From the IMG/VR virus record IMGVR_UViG_3300035703_000474, positions 1-20,020 of that record: a DNA stretch of 20,020 nt; one strand, written 5' to 3'. The position numbers and the translations under genes are program-made. Every line of letters starts with the position of its first letter. Within the stretch, counting starts at the first letter, position 1. The DNA is from a virus. Positions 1,530 to 18,088 of this stretch are shown one piece after another. Below the pieces are notes generated by a model. The model ran no database searches, had not been told where the DNA came from, and saw nothing but the letters and a program-made list of their open reading frames with translations.

Positions 1530-4043
1530 TCAGATCACCTGACCCCGGCGCCGCCCATCGGCCACGCTTTCCTTCGCGATGCGGGCGATTTCTGGGATGG
1601 CTGCCCGCAGTCGCGCATCGATCTGCTCGGCCACGCCCATCTGCGCGCCGCGTGCGTCGATGTTCACGTGCACGCCGGTGCCAGCGCTGGCGCCCCGGCC
1701 GTAACCAGTAGCCTCGCGCCGATTAAGCACCCGTTCTCCACGCTGCAAGATGGCCGGCACCTCATCAGGTCTAAGTCCCGCCCAGCCGCCAGAATGCAGC
1801 CGGGGGGCATCTGCAAAGGCCGAGACTGGAACAGCTCGCATCGGTGCGCCCGCACCGACGATGCCGCCCGCATGCCAGATGCTCGCATTCACCATCGGGT
1901 TTGCGGCAGCCGCTGCCCCACCTCCGAAGACCCCACCGCCAAAGACGCCCGAAAGCGCTGAGGCCAAGGGGCCCAAGACCGCGTTCTTGAAGGCAAGTGT
2001 GGCAAGGTCCGCCAAGATCGAGGAGACCAGCGATTTGAAGTCAAACTTGCCGGTGGTCACAAACTGCCGGAACGCGCTTTCCGCTGAAGAGAAGGCCGAG
2101 GTCAGCGTCTCGCCAAGCCCTTTGCCCCAATCCATCGCGCCCTTGGCATAGTCCGCGAGGGACTTTGTAACCTGCGCCCAGCCGGTCGCCGCTTCTTCTG
2201 CCGCCTTCTTGGCCGCACCGCCCGCCCCACCAGCGGCTTGGCCTGCCGCATCAAAGCCATCGGATACAGCGCCCGCCGCCTCAGTAGCACCAGCCAAAGC
2301 GTCCTCGCCCTCTCTCCCCGCGCCGGTGATTGCTGCCTTGAGGGCCTCCCAAGCGTTCATCGGGCGGGAGGCGGCCTCCGAGAGCATACCCGCCGCCTCA
2401 CCATAGCCGGAAGCGCGACCGCGTGCTGCCTCCGCCATGCCACCGAAGAGATCAGGCGCCTCGATGTAGGTCGTGCCCATGGCTGCACGGAATGCATCAG
2501 CCGCCGCCGTGCCTGCAGCGGAGGCTGCGCCTTCGAAGGGATTGGTAATTCCGCCGAGGTCCACCGCCTCGAGTGTGCCGATTCTTAGGCCAGCTTCACC
2601 CGTCGCCCAATCAGGCAGGAGGGCCAGCGCCGCGTTCAGCCCTTCGATGAAACTGTTGATCCGCACGACCACCGCATTCAGCATCGACTCGACGCCACCG
2701 ATGAGCCCATTCGCCGCCTGATAGGCAAAATCCCCGATCGCCTGCGGCAGCGCGCCCCAGATTGCCTTCACCCCGTCAAACGAACCCTGGAACGTCCCGA
2801 CCGCAGAATTGCCCCAGCCAACCACCGCCGCCAGCGCCGATTGCAGCCCGTCGTAAATCCCCGCCTGTGCGTTGGCCCAGCCGGCCTCAACGCGAGACCA
2901 GGCCGCCGTGGCCGCCAGCGCAAGGCGGTCCCAAGCCTCCGCCGCGGCATCACGCAAAAGGCCAAAGGCGGCACCAACGCCGCCGACTTTGCCCACCAGT
3001 TGCGTGAACTGATAGACCAGCTCGCCTGCGCCCACGATCAGAGCGCCGATCCCAGTGCGGATCAATGCCCCACGCAGAAAGACAAGCGCCGTGGCGAGGC
3101 CCTTCACGGAGAGAGCCGCAGCAGCCAGCCCTGCAACCCAGCGTCCGGCCATGACCGTGACAAAGGTTACGGCATAGGCCGTAAGCCTCCCAAGATTGTC
3201 GAGCACAGCGGTGAAGGCCCGATTGATGGGCCCACCAACCTCCGCCAGCCGCAAAAACCCCTCGGCCAGCGCCGTCACCGCAGGCGCCAAAGCCGCGCCG
3301 ATCTGATTGCGCATGCCCTCAAAGACCTGACCCACACCGATCAGGGCCAACTCTGCCCGTCGCAAGGCGCTGAGCGCCCTTTGGTCAAGCACCACCCCAA
3401 GCCCCGCCGCCCGCTCGCCCAACCGCGCCATCTCCGCGCCACCGTCTTGCAGCAAGGGAATGAGCCGCGTGGCATCCGAGGCCATCGCCTCGAGATAGAA
3501 GGTCATCTCTTGGCTGTTGACGCCCGCCTTCTCCAAGCTTGAGACATAAAGCTGCAGCGCCTCAGGTCCCGAGAGCCGTGCAAACTCTTCAGCCGTCACC
3601 CCCACCTTCGGCGCGATCTTCTCAAAAAAGTCCGCCATCGGGCCGCCGCCCGTCTGCAGGAAGTCCCCCACCCGGTCGTTCACGTCCTTCAGAATATCGG
3701 CGAGTTTCTCTTGTTCGATCCCGACCGTCACCGATGCGGCCGTCCAGCGCTGGAAAGCCTCCGGCGCGGCATTGGCGATCTGGGCAAACTGGGTGATCTC
3801 GGCAGCACTCTGTGCCGTGGATCGCACAATAACGCCCAGCGACGCTGTCGCTGCCGCGGCCGCAGCTCCAAGGGCAATTCCGGCTTTGCGCGCAAAACCC
3901 GCAAGACGGGCGTTGGCCAGCTCCATCTCGCGTGAGAGACGTCCAAAGCCTTTGGATCCGGCCTGGCCCACACCTTCCAGCTCAGCACGAACTTGACGGC
4001 CACCCACCGCGGCAAGCCGGACAGAGATGCGTTTTTCGGCCAC
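1530..4043 (-). CDS. Tail tape measure protein
   Basis: An 837-residue protein that would set tail length and assist DNA ejection. It is rich in Ala and Gly, has long helical stretches, and has hydrophobic segments around residues 290-350 that could interact with membrane. Near the C-terminus (about residues 665-710), 'TGKFDFKSLVSSILADLA' is a clear match to the lambda-family tape measure C-terminal signature, followed by a Gly-rich tail. The start is a GTG at 4041-4043 with AAGGG upstream. It follows the tail chaperone gene, as expected in siphophages, but here a plus-strand toxin-antitoxin pair separates the two. The start is divergent from the toxin gene, with only 44 bases between them. 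Confidence 0.93.
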   Translation of the reverse strand: MAEKRISVRLAAVGGRQVRAELEGVGQAGSKGFGRLSREMELANARLAGFARKAGIALGAAAAAATASLGVIVRSTAQSAAEITQFAQIANAAPEAFQRWTAASVTVGIEQEKLADILKDVNDRVGDFLQTGGGPMADFFEKIAPKVGVTAEEFARLSGPEALQLYVSSLEKAGVNSQEMTFYLEAMASDATRLIPLLQDGGAEMARLGERAAGLGVVLDQRALSALRRAELALIGVGQVFEGMRNQIGAALAPAVTALAEGFLRLAEVGGPINRAFTAVLDNLGRLTAYAVTFVTVMAGRWVAGLAAAALSVKGLATALVFLRGALIRTGIGALIVGAGELVYQFTQLVGKVGGVGAAFGLLRDAAAEAWDRLALAATAAWSRVEAGWANAQAGIYDGLQSALAAVVGWGNSAVGTFQGSFDGVKAIWGALPQAIGDFAYQAANGLIGGVESMLNAVVVRINSFIEGLNAALALLPDWATGEAGLRIGTLEAVDLGGITNPFEGAASAAGTAAADAFRAAMGTTYIEAPDLFGGMAEAARGRASGYGEAAGMLSEAASRPMNAWEALKAAITGAGREGEDALAGATEAAGAVSDGFDAAGQAAGGAGGAAKKAAEEAATGWAQVTKSLADYAKGAMDWGKGLGETLTSAFSSAESAFRQFVTTGKFDFKSLVSSILADLATLAFKNAVLGPLASALSGVFGGGVFGGGAAAAANPMVNASIWHAGGIVGAGAPMRAVPVSAFADAPRLHSGGWAGLRPDEVPAILQRGERVLNRREATGYGRGASAGTGVHVNIDARGAQMGVAEQIDARLRAAIPEIARIAKESVADGRRRGQVI

Positions 4044-4061
4044 GGTATTGCCCTTGCAATA

Positions 4062-4080
4062 TGTATCACATGATGATACA
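4062..4080. promoter_or_regulatory. Palindromic operator candidate upstream of higB
   Basis: The 19 bases are a perfect inverted repeat: TGTATCA, a 5-base spacer CATGA, then TGATACA. It lies 7 bases before the preferred toxin start and 18 bases from the start of the divergent tape measure gene. HigA antitoxins normally repress their own operon by binding such palindromes, so this is the natural autoregulatory site. A weak promoter fit, TTGCAA (4054-4059) with ATACAT (4076-4081), would overlap it. That layout is inferred. Confidence 0.6.
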
Positions 4081-4087
4081 TGCCATT

Positions 4088-4369
4088 ATGATCTTCAGCA
4101 CACGTGGAAAGCTTGCCGCTGGAGCGGTTCAAGGTCGCTTCGGCAAAGGCTTTCCTGCTGACTTGGTTAAGAGAACGCGCGCCATGCTTTCAGCCTTGGA
4201 TGCGGCCGTCGTTCTCGAAGACTTGCGGTTCCCGCCCGGCAACCATTTGGAAGCTTTGAGCGGTGACCGTGCAGGACAACATTCGGTGCGCATCAACGGC
4301 CAATGGCGCATTTGTTTCATCTGGACCGATCAGGGACCTGCCGAGGTCGAGATTCTGGACTATCACTAG
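4088..4369 (+). CDS. higB: HigB-type toxin of the RelE/ParE fold
   Basis: A 93-residue mRNA-interferase-type toxin. The middle (VKRTRAMLSALDAA) and the end (GDRAGQHSVRINGQWRICF, then EILDYH) match the HigB pattern 'R..R.L.ALD.A ... L.GD..G..S..VN..WRI.F ... DYH'. HigB toxins cleave mRNA on the ribosome. In-frame ATGs also occur at 4061, 4070 and 4073. I chose 4088 because the resulting N-terminus (MIFSTRGKL) aligns with HigB starts (MIxSFxHKGL), and because the earlier ones fall inside or just before the operator. No Shine-Dalgarno is visible, so a leaderless or weakly translated start is possible. The toxin comes first and the antitoxin follows 11 bases later, as in higBA loci. It is on the strand opposite to the surrounding tail genes. 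Confidence 0.88.
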   Translation: MIFSTRGKLAAGAVQGRFGKGFPADLVKRTRAMLSALDAAVVLEDLRFPPGNHLEALSGDRAGQHSVRINGQWRICFIWTDQGPAEVEILDYH

Positions 4370-4380
4370 GAGGGCTAAAC

Positions 4381-4671
4381 ATGAGCCTCGTAACCAATCC
4401 ATCCCACCCGGGCGAAGTCCTGGCGGAGCTTTATCTCATGCCACTCGACATGAGCCCGATTTCGCTCGCCGGCAGGCTCGAAGTGCCGAGAACCCGTATC
4501 GAGCGCCTTGTTAAAGGCCAGACCGCCATCACGATTGATACTGCGATGCGGCTTGCTCAGTTTTTCTCAACCACGCCAGAGTATTGGATGAACCTCCAGC
4601 GCGCTTGGGATTTGGCGCGTGCCCGAGAGACAATCGACGTCTCACACATCACACCTCTAAAGGCCGCCTGA
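4381..4671 (+). CDS. higA: HigA-type antitoxin, XRE helix-turn-helix
   Basis: A 96-residue XRE-family DNA-binding antitoxin. The N-terminus carries the HigA/VapI signature 'HPGEVLAELYL'. Helix-turn-helix residues are about 24-50 (SPISLAGRLEVPRTRIERLVKG), and the typical 'AMRLAQFFSTTPEYWMNLQ' follows. A strong AGGAGGG lies just before the start, overlapping the toxin stop region, in contrast to the toxin's poor ribosome site; this favours excess antitoxin. It should neutralise the toxin and repress the operon through the palindrome upstream. Its last 15 bases overlap, in antisense, the end of the frameshifted tail chaperone extension coming from the other strand. Confidence 0.92.
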   Translation: MSLVTNPSHPGEVLAELYLMPLDMSPISLAGRLEVPRTRIERLVKGQTAITIDTAMRLAQFFSTTPEYWMNLQRAWDLARARETIDVSHITPLKAA

Positions 4672-5321
4672 GCCGAGCCGGTCATTTACCTTACGCACCA
4701 TCACCGCCTCGATGGCAGGTAAAAGTTCAGCGATCGCTGGGGCCGGAATGCCGAGGGCCGCACCAAGCGCAAAGGCCGCGTTCATGTCCCAGCCGATCAC
4801 AGCGCCGGGGACGATGCGCAACTGACCCCCAAGGCGGCCGACCAGGTCCCAGACCAGCCAACCCTCGAAAGTTATTGGCTGGTTCAGTCGTGTAGGGCAG
4901 TCAGGGCAGACGGATCCGCAGGCAGCGCAGTAGCCGTCGCCCCCGCCGAACTCCCACTCGGCACGGGCGATGAGGCGTTTTTTTCCGCGTCCAGCAGCAA
5001 GCCTTTCGCGACATAAAGGCTTTGGAAGGCCTCGAAGATCGGCCAGATGTCCAAAAGCGCGTCGATCGCATCAGGGCTTATCGGCAATGGCTCTCCCTCC
5101 GCGTCCCCAATCCCTTCCCATTCAAGAATGGCAGAGCGCGCGAGCGCCTTGGCCATCGCCAGTGCGGCCTCCTCCGTCCTCGCCTCTTTCGGCAGGTCGG
5201 CAATCGCTGGATCGCTGCGTGCAGCCACCATCAGCGCCGTGGTGAGCGGGCGGAGTTTTACGCGCACGCCGGGGACAAGGTCGCACCAAATAGGTGCGTT
5301 GGTGAGATCGAGGGTTAGCAT
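4657..5321 (-). CDS. Tail assembly chaperone, long form (G-T-like fusion by -1 frameshift)
   Basis: A 221-residue predicted product made when ribosomes slip back one base at 4977. The first 115 residues come from the short form. The remaining 106 run in the -1 frame from 4977 to a TAG at 4657-4659. The extension is clearly coding: it has a four-cysteine cluster (YCAACGSVCPDC), then a helical region with EGWLVWDLVGRLGGQ and AIEAVMVRKVND that resembles the extensions of tail chaperones in GTA-like phages. The long form is expected to recruit the tape measure while the shared N-terminal part binds tail tube subunits, as with lambda gpGT. Separate translation of the extension is unlikely because no good start is seen near its beginning. 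Confidence 0.83.
4884..5321 (-). CDS. Tail assembly chaperone, short form (G-like)
   Basis: A 145-residue protein from the ATG at 5319-5321, preceded by GAGAGAA. An upstream in-frame extension to 5408 exists but runs into the tail tube gene and looks non-coding. The core (residues 1-115) is a helical domain (VKLRPLTTALMVAARSDP; FEAFQSLYVAKGLLLDAEKN) like GTA/HK97-type tail chaperones that hold the tape measure and tube subunits during assembly and are absent from the virion. After the slippery site the zero frame continues for about 30 low-complexity residues (SSPVPSGSSAGATATALPADPS), as expected when the real function is in the -1 frame. It lies 11 bases after the tail tube stop. Confidence 0.82.
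   Translation of the reverse strand: MLTLDLTNAPIWCDLVPGVRVKLRPLTTALMVAARSDPAIADLPKEARTEEAALAMAKALARSAILEWEGIGDAEGEPLPISPDAIDALLDIWPIFEAFQSLYVAKGLLLDAEKNASSPVPSGSSAGATATALPADPSALTALHD
4937..4983 (-). promoter_or_regulatory. -1 programmed ribosomal frameshift signal
   Basis: On the minus strand, heptamer A-AAA-AAC (4983 to 4977) is in the X-XXY-YYZ phase with the zero-frame codons GAA AAA AAC. Next comes a 6-base spacer (GCCTCA, 4976-4971), then a hairpin. The left arm is TCGCCCGTGCCGA (4970-4958), the loop is 8 bases (4957-4950), and the right arm is TCGGCGGGGGCGA (4949-4937). Eleven of 13 positions are Watson-Crick pairs, one is a T-G wobble and one a G-G mismatch. Slippery site, spacing and stimulatory stem together match a canonical -1 frameshift element. 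Confidence 0.87.
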
Positions 5322-5332
5322 GTTGGGTTCTC

Positions 5333-6271
5333 TCAGTAGGAGGCGACAGTGTTGACGAGGACGGCCGTACACATCCGGGTGGGGCTCGCAGCCTTGGCGG
5401 CCTGCCATTCGAAGGTCGCCTGAATGCCCTGTGGCCCCGGGATTTCGATCCGGGGGCGCGGCAGGTAGACGGCATGGGCCGTGAAGGTGAAGCTGGCACT
5501 TGCCCCAAGGCTCCAGGCGAAGACCAACTCACAAGGTGTGCCATCCAGGGCTTGGGTGATGAGGGCCGTGTCGGCAAATCGCACCTCCATCCGCCCGGTT
5601 AGGGACGCCATTCCGGGATCGGCACCCTCGATCTTGCCGTCCGCGCGAATTGTCTCGATCCGGTCAAGACCATTGGAATAGGTGACCTCCGCTGAGATGA
5701 CATTGCCGAGCGGCGTCCCATTGCGGGTAATGGATCCGTTGAAGTGCCCGAAGCGCTGCAAGCCAAGCGCGGTGGTCGTACCTGCAGCCGTGGCGGCTGA
5801 GGCACTTTCCCCTTGCGCGATGAGCCGCGCGGTTGCGGTTAGAAGACCTGACCGTGACATTTGCCAGCTTAGCTGATCGCAAACGCAGCCCGTGTACATC
5901 GCATAGCGCGGCACTTCGGGCATGCCCGTCTCGATCGCCATGCTTGGAAGCGACCAGTTCCCCGACTGGAACGTGTGGGTCTTCGGTGTCGTGCCGGTGG
6001 TCGTGGGGCCTCCGAAGGCCGCCTTCAGCCAGAGGCCAAAGTTCTCAACATCGATCGGCACCACGACATCGCCATCCGCCGTGACCGCATCCTTGATCGG
6101 GGCCAGCGGGTCGCGCCCCTGGCCCAAGAGCTCCGAGGCAATCAAGGGCTGCTCGGACCCAATCGTGGTGCTGGCAAAGGGCACCGTGCGGAAGCCTGTG
6201 GCGGGCGCAGTGCCATAAACAGTCTCGAACGCCAGCGCCATGTGCGCCCGCGCCCCATGGGCTCGTGCCAT
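5333..6271 (-). CDS. Major tail tube protein
   Basis: A 312-residue protein located before the tail chaperone, where siphophages encode their tube subunit. The start (ATG 6269-6271) has AAAGGATA upstream. The first part (ETVYGTAPATGFRTVPF) is the usual N-terminal region of this tail tube family, followed by a two-domain beta-rich protein with alternating Thr/Gly/Ser segments. Residues about 195-225 (ISAEVTYSNGLDRIETIRADG) match the repeat domain of such tube proteins. It should polymerise into the tail shaft around the tape measure. Its start is divergent from the bactofilin gene, with 130 bases between, so this spacer could also hold a promoter for the distal tail genes. Confidence 0.85.
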   Translation of the reverse strand: MARAHGARAHMALAFETVYGTAPATGFRTVPFASTTIGSEQPLIASELLGQGRDPLAPIKDAVTADGDVVVPIDVENFGLWLKAAFGGPTTTGTTPKTHTFQSGNWSLPSMAIETGMPEVPRYAMYTGCVCDQLSWQMSRSGLLTATARLIAQGESASAATAAGTTTALGLQRFGHFNGSITRNGTPLGNVISAEVTYSNGLDRIETIRADGKIEGADPGMASLTGRMEVRFADTALITQALDGTPCELVFAWSLGASASFTFTAHAVYLPRPRIEIPGPQGIQATFEWQAAKAASPTRMCTAVLVNTVASY

Positions 6272-6401
6272 TTTGGTATCCTTTTCAGCGGATTTTGGTT
6301 AGAGGAGCAGCAATTGCATTTGACGCAGAGGCAATTCATGCTGGGACAAGCGCTCAGCCAACGCACCTATGGTGCAGACACGACCCGAAGGCAGACCTCG
6401 A

Positions 6402-6776
6402 ATGACCACTCTCACACCAAGCACGGCAAAACCTTCCGTCCTCGCACCGGATCTCGAAGTCACGGGTGATATTACCAGCAGAGGCCCCTTGGTGGTTCAA
6501 GCGCGTGTTGTCGGCAACATCACCGGCGAGATCGTGACGATTGAGCACTGGGCCAATGTGAAGGGTGACATCGAGGCCAAGCAGGCAACGATTGAAGGCG
6601 TCGTTGTTGGCGCAGTCATCGCGGAGGATGTCCGCGTTGCGCATTCCGGTCAAATCAACGGCTCAGTTCATTACACCAAACTGGCCGTGGAAGCTGGCGC
6701 GATGATCGAGGGCCATCTGAGAATGATAACCCCGCCCCCGGAACCCACTCAGCCAAGTGGATCGGCCAGCGAATAA
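6402..6776 (+). CDS. Bactofilin (polymer-forming cytoskeletal protein)
   Basis: A 124-residue protein with the bactofilin (DUF583) right-handed beta-helix pattern. From about residue 15 to 110 it repeats short hydrophobic rungs: DLEVTGDITSRGPLVV, then ARVVGNITG, then VTIEHWANVKGDIEA, then ATIEGVVVGAVIA and GQINGSVHYTKLAV. The ends are Pro/Thr-rich, as in bacterial bactofilins. These proteins polymerise without nucleotide and organise envelope or cell-shape functions. I chose ATG 6402 over 6369 because GAAGG lies 10 bases upstream and the extra residues (MVQTRPEGRPR) look non-conserved. It is a single gene on the strand opposite to the tail operon, and its last 28 bases overlap the end of the tail terminator gene. 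What a phage does with it is unknown. Confidence 0.9.
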   Translation: MTTLTPSTAKPSVLAPDLEVTGDITSRGPLVVQARVVGNITGEIVTIEHWANVKGDIEAKQATIEGVVVGAVIAEDVRVAHSGQINGSVHYTKLAVEAGAMIEGHLRMITPPPEPTQPSGSASE

Positions 6777-7252: not shown

Positions 7253-7561
7253 ATGTTCGCAATCGAAAGCATCGCTACGACCCCGGGCAAGATGGATGCG
7301 CGCAAGGAATTGCGCCTTCATCGCGCTGATGAAGAACGCATCCGGGCCGCCGCTGCGGCGACTGGCTTGCAGGAGGCTGACTTCATCCGTCAGGCTGCGC
7401 TCTTGCGCGCGCGGGAGATTGAGCAGCGTCTGTCCCTTTCAATCCTGCCCAATGAAGCGTTTGAGGCCTTTCGCCGCGCGACTGAGGCGTCAGGCAAGGT
7501 CGTGACCGGACTGGCGCGTGCTGCCGCTCAGTCGAAAGGTCGTCTGACGGATGCCAAGTAA
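7253..7561 (+). CDS. DUF1778-type ribbon-helix-helix antitoxin
   Basis: A 102-residue protein. Residues about 14-56 (MDARKELRLHRADEERIRAA, then TGLQEADFIRQAAL) match the N-terminal ribbon-helix-helix of DUF1778/TacA-type antitoxins. The C-terminal tail (LPNEAFEAFRRATEA...) would wrap the toxin and block its acetyl-CoA site. ATG 7253 is preferred because AAGGAGA lies 7 bases upstream. A longer frame reading from 6926 crosses the tail terminator gene and is not coding. The toxin gene overlaps its end by 11 bases, so the two are translationally coupled. It probably represses its own operon through the palindrome just upstream. Confidence 0.88.
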   Translation: MFAIESIATTPGKMDARKELRLHRADEERIRAAAAATGLQEADFIRQAALLRAREIEQRLSLSILPNEAFEAFRRATEASGKVVTGLARAAAQSKGRLTDAK

Positions 7562-8096
7562 AGCACTGGCGTATCAACCCGCCCTGGTAATCGCGAAGTT
7601 CGACAAGGCGCTGCATGACCGCAGCGCTTTTTCTTGCGGCTTTGGCCCGATCGACAATTTCCTAAAGTCCTCGCTTTCGGATCAGATCAAGAGCGGTATG
7701 GTTGCCGCCTGGATCGCGACGGCCGAAGACGATCAGGCGGTCTTGGGGTTCTATACTCTTGGCGCACTTGCCGTTCGGGCCAATATCGGCCCAGGTAAAT
7801 GGCAGCGTGCCGGGGTGCCGGACATTCCTGTAATTTATATCCGAGCGGTCGGCGTTCACACGGACATGCAGGGGCAGGGCCTTGGCACAGCTCTTCTCAT
7901 AGATGCGATGACGCGTTGCCTTGGCATCGCAGATCAGATGGGGGCCGCGGCAATCGTTCTCGATGTCCTGAAGGATGACCAGTTCGAAAAGCGCTGGCGC
8001 TTCTATGAAGGGCTTGGGTTTAAGTCACTATGCGATCCCGACAACCCGCAGAGGGTCTTTATTCCGATGGCCGATGTCAGGGCGACGCTGGGCTGA
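7551..8096 (+). CDS. GNAT-family acetyltransferase toxin
   Basis: A 181-residue GNAT protein partnered with the DUF1778 antitoxin. The acetyl-CoA motif QGQGLG is at residues 107-112 and follows 'IRAVGVHTD'. RFYEGLGF at about 150-157 supplies the conserved Tyr (Y152) used as general acid. The N-terminal FSCGFGPIDNFLK segment is typical of TacT/AtaT-like toxins. Such toxins acetylate the amino acid on charged tRNAs and stop translation; which tRNA cannot be read from sequence. All recognisable catalytic elements are present, so it looks active. It ends 9 bases before the stop of the convergent DUF6441 gene. Confidence 0.9.
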   Translation: MPSKALAYQPALVIAKFDKALHDRSAFSCGFGPIDNFLKSSLSDQIKSGMVAAWIATAEDDQAVLGFYTLGALAVRANIGPGKWQRAGVPDIPVIYIRAVGVHTDMQGQGLGTALLIDAMTRCLGIADQMGAAAIVLDVLKDDQFEKRWRFYEGLGFKSLCDPDNPQRVFIPMADVRATLG

Positions 8097-16290: not shown

Positions 16291-16514
16291 CCTCGCGCAC
16301 CCGCCACCCGGATGGCCTCGAAGAGCCGGCGCAGCAAGAACGATCTTGCCAGGCTTACGATTGTGAAGACCCCGCCCATTGCAAGATTTTGACCCAAGGT
16401 CGTCTGCAGTCCGAACACAGGAAAGATCAGGATCTGCGTCACGACGGCGACGCCATAACCGACGATCACGTTGGCGACAGACTCGGCCAACGACATGAGG
16501 CGGGACTGCTTCAT
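16287..16514 (-). CDS. DUF7220-type small membrane protein
   Basis: A 75-residue protein with two likely membrane segments: about residues 12-34 (ANVIVGYGVAVVTQILIFPVFGL) and 40-58 (LGQNLAMGGVFTIVSLARS). A basic end follows (FLLRRLFEAIRVAG). The pattern 'SRLMSLAESVANVIVGYGVAV' and the 'SLARSFLLRRLFE' ending match a small family I know as DUF7220 from Rhodobacterales phages. Its function is not established. Its ATG overlaps the methyltransferase stop (ATGA), so the two are coupled. With two membrane segments it could be holin-like, but no lysin gene is adjacent and I would not name it so. Confidence 0.7.
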   Translation of the reverse strand: MKQSRLMSLAESVANVIVGYGVAVVTQILIFPVFGLQTTLGQNLAMGGVFTIVSLARSFLLRRLFEAIRVAGARG

Positions 16515-17743
16515 GCGGCCTCACGTTCGGCCTTCAGCGCCCCGAAGGTGGTGTCGCTGCCCTCAAGCACCGCCTGTTTGCCGGTGAACTTCTGCCAACG
16601 TGCAACCGCCACATCGACGTAAGCCGGGTTCAGTTCGATGCCATAACAGACTCGTCCAGTCGTCTCGGCGGCGATCAGCGTCGTCCCTGATCCCATGAAG
16701 GGTTCGTAGACGGCCTGCCCGGGGCTCGAGTTGTTCAGGATTGGTCGGCGCATGCATTCGACGGGCTTCTGCGTGCCGTGGACGGTTTTCTCGTCCTGAT
16801 CCTTGTTGGCAATCTGCCAAAGCGTGGTCTGCTTGCGGTCCCCAGCCCAGTGGCCCTTGCCGGATTTGCGCACGGCATACCAAGCGGGCTCATGTTGCCA
16901 ATGGTAATCACCGCGGCTCAAAACCAGCCGATCCTTGGCCCAGATGATCTGGGACCGGATGCTGAACCCCGCGACCTCGAGGCTTTCTGCGACCGTCGCT
17001 GCATGCAAAGCACCGTGCCACACATAGGCGACGTCGCCGGGAAACAGCGCCCAAGCCTCGCGCCAGTCGGCGCGATCGTCGTTCAGCACCTTACCGGTGC
17101 GTTTTGTTTTGGCTGCGCCCGCCTGATTGCGCCAGCTCGGGTCGTATTCCACGCCATAGGGTGGATCGGTCACCATCAGCAGCGGTTTGACCGTGCCAAG
17201 GAGCCTCTCAACATCCGTAGCGACAGTGCTGTCGCCGCAGAGCATCCGGTGGTTGCCGAGGATCCAGAGATCGCCTTGACGGCTGATCGGATCCTCGGGA
17301 GTTTCCGGCACATCGTCCTCGCCCTCCTGCGGACCGGTGCCTTCCTCAAGGCTCGACATCAGGGCGTTCAGCTCATCTTCGGTGAAGCCAGTCAGCCCGA
17401 GGTCAAAATCCGCCTCCAGCAGGTCGGCCAGTTCGAGGTTCAAGAGGTCCTTGTCCCATTCGGCATTCTCGCCAGAACGGTTGTCCATGATCCGGAACGC
17501 GCGCGCCTGATTAGCTGTCAGACCCTTGGCGACATGCACCGGCGCGGTCTTAAACCCGAGCTTGCGGGCGGCTTCCAGCCGGGTGTGCCCGGCGAGAACC
17601 ACCATCGCCTCATCCACGACGATGGGTTGGCGCCAGCCGAATTCCTGAATCGATGCCGCGACCGCAGCAATCGCCTGCTCGTTGCGCCGCGGGTTGCGCG
17701 CATAGGGAATGATCTGCTCAAGCGGCAGGTCGACGACGTCCAT
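16511..17743 (-). CDS. DNA methyltransferase with N-terminal ParB/sulfiredoxin-like domain
   Basis: About 410 residues. The first ~100 form a ParB-N-like domain (LEQIIPYARNPRRNEQAI, then GWRQPIVVDEAMVVLAGHTRLEAARKLG). The second part is a DNA methyltransferase with DPPYGVEY (catalytic motif, about residue 193) before FMGSGTT (AdoMet-binding, about residue 349), the order seen in the beta class. DPPY implies N6-adenine or N4-cytosine methylation. Such proteins in phages are thought to protect DNA from host restriction. No restriction endonuclease is adjacent. An ATG at 17764 extends it by 7 residues but lacks a ribosome site. ATG 17741-17743 has AAGGA 7 bases upstream and matches the usual start of this family. 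Confidence 0.92.
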   Translation of the reverse strand: MDVVDLPLEQIIPYARNPRRNEQAIAAVAASIQEFGWRQPIVVDEAMVVLAGHTRLEAARKLGFKTAPVHVAKGLTANQARAFRIMDNRSGENAEWDKDLLNLELADLLEADFDLGLTGFTEDELNALMSSLEEGTGPQEGEDDVPETPEDPISRQGDLWILGNHRMLCGDSTVATDVERLLGTVKPLLMVTDPPYGVEYDPSWRNQAGAAKTKRTGKVLNDDRADWREAWALFPGDVAYVWHGALHAATVAESLEVAGFSIRSQIIWAKDRLVLSRGDYHWQHEPAWYAVRKSGKGHWAGDRKQTTLWQIANKDQDEKTVHGTQKPVECMRRPILNNSSPGQAVYEPFMGSGTTLIAAETTGRVCYGIELNPAYVDVAVARWQKFTGKQAVLEGSDTTFGALKAEREAA

Positions 17744-18088
17744 GGTGATGTCCTTGAGGTGCATGAAAGCGAAATGGGGTCGGATGCCCGTTTCGGTTCA
17801 GGCGAGTTGTATCAGGCGGTCATGCCTTTGTTTTGTTGGGGTTCGACGCAAACCGAAACGAAACGGGTGTTTTCAGGGGTGTCACTGGGAAACCCTCGGG
17901 CCTCGCCCCCCCGAATACGGTCATGAACAGGAGGGACCCGTTCAATTTCAATGGGTTGCGAGGCGAAACATTTTGAACGGAGACGGTTTTTTCGGAAACC
18001 TGGTCACCGAGTTCAGCTTTGTTTTGCCTCTTGCAGTGCCACTGATCCTCATCGTCTCATATACGCGTACACACGAGAGAACTGCAAA
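17744..18088. other. 345-base non-coding region between methyltransferase and VRR-NUC genes
   Basis: No convincing gene is seen here. A frame starting at 17951 joins the nuclease but its first 46 residues are basic and unlike coding sequence. The region has runs such as CCCCCCC (17906 area), a perfect 10-base inverted repeat described separately, and a second imperfect repeat around CCCGTT/AATGGG at 17938-17957. The two genes are divergent, so promoters and operator sites for both are expected. I could not find a well-spaced -35/-10 pair. Confidence 0.5.
17789..17860. repeat. Inverted repeat, 10-base perfect arms
   Basis: CGTTTCGGTT at 17789-17798 is repeated in inverse as AACCGAAACG at 17851-17860, with 52 bases between. 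The right arm is followed by AAACGGG, giving an overlapping CGAAACGAAACGGG motif, while the left arm is preceded by CC. The repeat is far too widely spaced for a terminator. It lies upstream of the methyltransferase start and could be paired protein-binding sites. No function is shown. Confidence 0.5.

Follow-up and report, generated by a model that had tools for sequence, protein, structure and literature searches.

Does the tail assembly chaperone gene of this phage encode a single protein, or two forms that share a start and part company at a −1 ribosomal frameshift? The stretch of DNA analysed here (the window) is an entire IMG/VR virus record of 20,020 bases and carries siphovirus-like phage head and tail genes on its minus strand (i.e. 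terminase, portal, capsid, tail tube, chaperone and tape measure). A preliminary description of the sequence had pointed to a complete −1 frameshift element of the lambda G/GT type within the chaperone gene. From the site itself and its conservation among relatives we infer that a programmed −1 ribosomal frameshift almost certainly yields two tail assembly chaperone forms from this one gene.

The proposed frameshift site

The chaperone gene (4884–5321, minus strand; a short, G-like form of 145 amino acids in the 0 frame) lies between a tail tube protein gene upstream (5333–6271, minus strand; PF18906, 1e-58) and a tape measure protein gene downstream (1530–4043, minus strand; phrog_8462, 1e-116, and PF09718). 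The 0-frame protein matches the tail assembly chaperone family phrog_313 (4e-21), as do 25 of the 25 aligned members, and together with the flanking genes this agrees with the identity initially given to it; a Pfam search of the same protein returned no match.

All elements of the site were re-derived and agreed with the preliminary description to the base. The slippery heptamer A AAA AAC (4977–4983, minus strand) is in phase, being read GAA AAA AAC in the 0 frame, and is followed on the same strand by a 6-nt spacer, GCCTCA (4971–4976), and by a stem with 5′ arm TCGCCCGTGCCGA (4958–4970), a loop of 8 bases and 3′ arm TCGGCGGGGGCGA (4937–4949). The 13 positions of this stem comprise 11 Watson–Crick pairs, one G-U pair (T-G in DNA letters) and one G-G mismatch. 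From its ATG at 5321 the chaperone frame continues for 30 codons past the heptamer to the 0-frame stop at 4884. The −1 frame is open for 106 codons plus a stop at 4657–4659 (4657–4977, minus strand), and the long, T-like product counted from the same ATG would comprise 115 + 106 = 221 amino acids, as originally calculated.

AAAAAAC is a rare word in the GC-rich sequence of the window, with a chance expectation of approximately 0.5 per strand and of approximately 0.0008 in phase within a 90-nt slot. The site region has a predicted RNA fold of −29.5 kcal/mol that includes the expected stem (z −2.5 versus dinucleotide shuffles, 3 of 200 being as good). This single-sequence score is only modest because the region is GC-rich, and the real evidence is therefore comparative. 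An Rfam search gave no match.

Conservation of the heptamer among relatives

The comparison set comprised 289 loci from IMG/VR, bacterial genomes and named phages, representing 208 distinct contexts. A slippery heptamer was found at the same codon in 207 of these (201 A AAA AAC; four G GGA AAC; one A AAA AAT; and one A AAA AAA), and in the sole non-slippery context (L206) Ns lie directly beside the site. Since motifs overlapping the stem region had in part been used to find these loci, a second and less biased set was drawn by searching genomes with the profile of DUF7697 alone, the Pfam family matched by the extension (see below), whose profile region lies approximately 160 bases downstream of the site. 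The extension was clearly matched in 41 loci of this draw (some near-duplicates included), 39 of them complete from the first residue of the extension, and all 39 carried a slippery heptamer at offset 0, in the correct phase relative to a long ORF in the 0 frame (35 A AAA AAC; three G GGA AAC; and one A AAA AAA). The heptamer was absent from the other two loci, both of which look degenerate, with broken chaperone and extension reading frames in L300 and tail tube sequence in the place of the chaperone in L312. Loci L303 and L319 fell below the Pfam cut-off and L332 had a DUF7697 match above it but near a contig end and with an in-frame stop; searching these three with the extension profile produced no match in any of them.

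G GGA AAC replaces A AAA AAC at the same codon in several lineages (L126, L129, L130, L200, L302, L304 and L315). Such exchange between slippery heptamers is as predicted under selection for slippage, and the lineages concerned offer natural swaps with which slippage strength could be tested.

Synonymous codon choice at the stem

The stem falls within the codons of a strongly conserved protein motif, ALAEWxFGGG, and Ala GCC codons are inherently able to pair with Gly GGC codons; the hairpin could therefore be a by-product of the protein, and a control for this was needed. Synonymous codons were therefore shuffled within each extension with both protein and codon usage held fixed, upon which the stem was lost. 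The mean folding z of the natural sequences at fixed protein was −2.38 over the stem in 142 representatives, versus −0.55, +0.22 and +0.08 in three later intervals, and −2.29 in 21 divergent members, versus +0.63 and −0.45, with a low folding excess in three of the divergent members (L304, L305 and L317; z +0.57 to −0.56). Individual codons were similarly biased: Gly-12 is encoded by the rare GGG, which pairs with Leu CTY, in 139 of 140 sequences (background 11%), Leu-5 by CTC or CTT in 127 of 127 (background CTG 49%) and Ala-6 by GCC in 136 of 141 (background GCG 49%). A silent change in the −1 frame falls on a second codon position of the 0 frame, and the rest of the two-frame overlap therefore served as a further control. 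Silent codon difference amounted to 0.18 for the stem, to 0.46 for the overlap without the stem and to 0.48 beyond the 0-frame stop, the constraint being confined to the stem rather than extending over the whole overlap. Maintenance of the predicted stem by synonymous codon choice is hence strongly supported, and its origin as a by-product of a conserved motif with complementary Ala and Gly codons appears highly improbable.

Standard pairing was observed at the stem pairs in 89–100% of sequences, except for the outermost T-A (28%) and the inner flanking pair (79%). Within the same-register set, true compensatory changes on both sides are rare (position pairs 7-38 and 13-32), but the divergent members form their stem from other sequence, in some cases with the register shifted. 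With so few compensations, the case for the stem leans mainly on silent-site choice and on these re-made stems. The hairpin had been described as clear and unusually strong. The stem is indeed present, but it does not stand out within its family, since the G-G mismatch is absent from many relatives, which fold at least as well.

The two halves of the predicted long product

The preliminary description had anticipated a DUF1799-like extension; its match is instead to DUF7697 (PF24752; 3e-24, 85.1 bits versus a curated cut-off of 27) and to phrog_11212 (3e-19). These library models (52 positions for PF24752 and 55 for phrog_11212) cover the C-terminal half only, from about residues 53–56 to residue 103 of the extension (4669–4812, minus strand). 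The first half lies outside every library model and contains the ALAEWxFGGG motif and four cysteines (C17, C20, C24 and C27 of the extension; 4897–4929, minus strand) that are invariant in both alignments (A1 and A2) and spaced CxxC-x3-CxxC in most relatives. Their zinc-knuckle-like arrangement suggests a putative zinc-binding knuckle beyond the coverage of DUF7697 and phrog_11212. Protein conservation, seen in IMG/VR, bacterial genomes and named phages alike, begins at extension codon 1, directly after the heptamer, with W8 and the cysteines invariant and the GGG nearly so. A conserved start codon near the beginning of the extension was sought across the 142 representatives and not found.

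When the fused protein of 221 amino acids was compared with PHROGs, its halves matched two separate families and no entry spanned both. Against PDB sequences, the profiles of both halves gave chance-level matches only. Predicted structures were of fair confidence (pLDDT 77 and 80). The first PDB match of the chaperone model was the HK97 chaperone 2ob9, a weak match (E 0.77; TM 0.31–0.39), and chaperones recur among its viral matches in BFVD. Several 'tape measure chaperone' proteins are among the best viral matches of the extension model in BFVD, again weakly (E 0.14–0.7); against the PDB, the extension fold reached a best Z of 3.3, which is uninformative. No mention of DUF7697 was found in the literature searched.

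Alternative explanations

The way in which library models and gene callers treat DUF7697 would suit a separate overlapping gene with its own internal start, the heptamer being incidental. PF24752 and phrog_11212 start only at about residues 53–56, as if the annotated ORFs began there, start-like GTG or ATG codons are common only at extension codons 55, 60 and 65 (53, 101 and 105 of the 142 representatives respectively), and annotation splits the Synechococcus and Nostoc phage relatives into two ORFs. Because the models begin at internal residues, a short, internally started protein could, as far as sequence goes, be made as well. As the origin of the whole extension, however, a separate gene is most unlikely, given that conservation as protein runs from codon 1 through an N-terminal part devoid of a conserved start and that every full-length member retains a heptamer, different versions of it substituting for each other. 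Two findings named at the outset as contrary to frameshifting, homologues without heptamer and hairpin and an extension with its own conserved start, were both looked for, and neither was encountered: the heptamer is kept, the stem is retained by silent-site choice or re-made, and start-like codons become common only well inside the extension.

The frames could also be joined by RNA polymerase rather than by the ribosome, through slippage on the run of seven A that is present in the window and in most relatives. Such a run is short for efficient transcriptional slippage, and the G GGA AAC relatives, whose site is free of long homopolymers, argue against it; a conserved stem six bases downstream that is under silent-site selection fits ribosome stalling, and we regard polymerase slippage as very improbable. 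On the plus strand, the hairpin could in turn be viewed as an intrinsic terminator for the convergent higBA module (see below), since downstream of higA a GC-rich stem is followed by six bases and a G and then by TTTTTTT. Yet at least six bases separate the stem from the T run, a terminator scan finds none, the element also occurs in loci that have no toxin–antitoxin module and in which the chaperone frame runs into the tape measure gene (94 of 198 relatives show such overlap), and 154 of the 208 contexts have neither higA nor PIN modules. Negative in the scan and at odds with the loci that keep the element without any module, the terminator explanation is largely refuted and extremely unlikely to hold.

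Proposed mechanism and comparison with known systems

The programmed −1 frameshift, in the lambda G/GT form first put forward, is supported by the heptamer in 207 of 208 contexts and in 39 of 39 relatives drawn by DUF7697 alone and by silent-site selection on the stem. Translating ribosomes would meet GAA AAA AAC while being hindered by the hairpin six bases further on, and a minority would slip back by one base, with both tRNAs re-pairing on A AAA AAA. Most ribosomes would keep frame and terminate 30 codons later, giving the protein of 145 amino acids, and the minority would continue in the −1 frame to give the 221-amino-acid fusion of chaperone and DUF7697. On the model of lambda gpG/gpGT, the tape measure protein may be coated by the short form, and a few long forms may recruit tail tube subunits via the extension.

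These are the roles ascribed to the lambda short and long forms in the review PMC5009743, where the −1 frameshift work on gpG/gpGT is cited to Levin (1993) and Xu (2004, 2013, 2014). Like its lambda counterpart, the gene of the window lies between tail tube and tape measure genes on the same strand, encodes a short form homologous to known chaperones and has an in-phase −1 slippage motif of the form X XXY YYZ near the end of that form; its extension enters an overlapping ORF ahead of the tape measure gene and is conserved as protein without a start of its own. A downstream RNA structure, which is common but not universal in this type, is indicated here by prediction and silent-site selection. 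Unlike lambda, the family uses A AAA AAC (or G GGA AAC) with a simple stem 6 nt away that is under strong selection, and its extension is a four-cysteine DUF7697 domain. The HK97-related tail assembly chaperone cluster (GeneTack; PMC3711429), in two genes of which a frameshift efficiency of 6–7% was measured, likewise represents a chaperone-type programmed frameshift, but resemblance to HK97 is here limited to a weak fold match (E 0.77).

The Rhodobacter capsulatus RcC-cluster phages (RcKemmy, RcDormio, RcKai and others; PMC8601537, PMC9753621) share with the window the gene position and the stem position, with 39% identity in the chaperone and 52% in the extension, and their chaperone is annotated as a joined CDS. 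They differ in having the heptamer G GGA AAC, a GKG motif at the third Gly with a matching stem change (CTT/AAG), and a tape measure gene directly next, without a toxin–antitoxin module. One of the phages in PMC8601537 is reported, unlike most, to be without clear evidence of the usual chaperone frameshift. The expectation that standard gene calling would miss the long product applies to the Synechococcus and Nostoc phage relatives, where two separate ORFs are annotated, but not to RcKemmy, RcDormio and RcKai, in which manual annotators joined the frames.

This kind of frameshift is already known, joined CDS annotations exist for close relatives, and the site is of a textbook recoding type that the family evidence makes unusually well documented. 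What is added is modest: DUF7697, whose entries PF24752 and phrog_11212 describe the C-terminal half of the extension and omit the N-terminal four-cysteine half, would be the hidden second half of a frameshift product across the family. It would not be free-standing in Alphaproteobacteria prophages and in phages of Rhodobacter, Synechococcus and Nostoc, and as the second half of a long tail chaperone it is consequently split or truncated by gene callers. With two heptamers and stems of differing sequence, the family provides a large natural set for measuring how the short:long ratio is controlled outside lambda, and its four-cysteine, possibly zinc-binding T-like domain is a candidate for tail tube binding.

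Toxin–antitoxin modules and other inverted genes

In the window, an opposite-strand higB-higA pair (4061–4671, plus strand) separates the extension from the tape measure gene, the end of higA overlapping the end of the extension by about 15 bases. The corresponding gap was measurable in 198 relatives and was an overlap in 94, less than 100 bases in 48 and at least 100 bases in 56. The long gaps are in most cases occupied by opposite-strand type II toxin–antitoxin modules, consisting of a PIN toxin with an AbrB/MazE-like antitoxin, higBA, a RelE-HTH pair or composites; by homology, the PIN type was recognized in 43 of the 208 contexts, higA in 10 and both in one. On this gene content, the junction between chaperone extension and tape measure gene is a hot spot for predicted inverted type II modules. 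They always lie opposite to the late genes, and examples after the extension stop include L173, L132, L116, L047 (RelE-HTH) and L016 and L224 (composites of two kinds). Having entered the junction repeatedly, the modules could give rise to antisense transcripts with an influence on the ratio of short to long chaperone, which would couple prophage toxin–antitoxin expression to tail assembly; we consider this very unlikely.

A second inverted toxin–antitoxin-like pair, a TacA-like antitoxin with a GNAT toxin (7295–8096, plus strand), is located between head–tail genes of the window, and homologues of it were detected in 10 loci, also opposite to the late genes. Directly upstream of the tail tube gene lies an inverted bactofilin gene (6369–6776, plus strand; PF04519, 6e-21), and close relatives also have one upstream of their chaperone gene; bactofilin is a cytoskeletal protein and unusual as phage cargo. 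Near the terminase end of the record, a fusion of ParB-N and an N6/N4 DNA methylase is encoded at 16511–17764 (minus strand).
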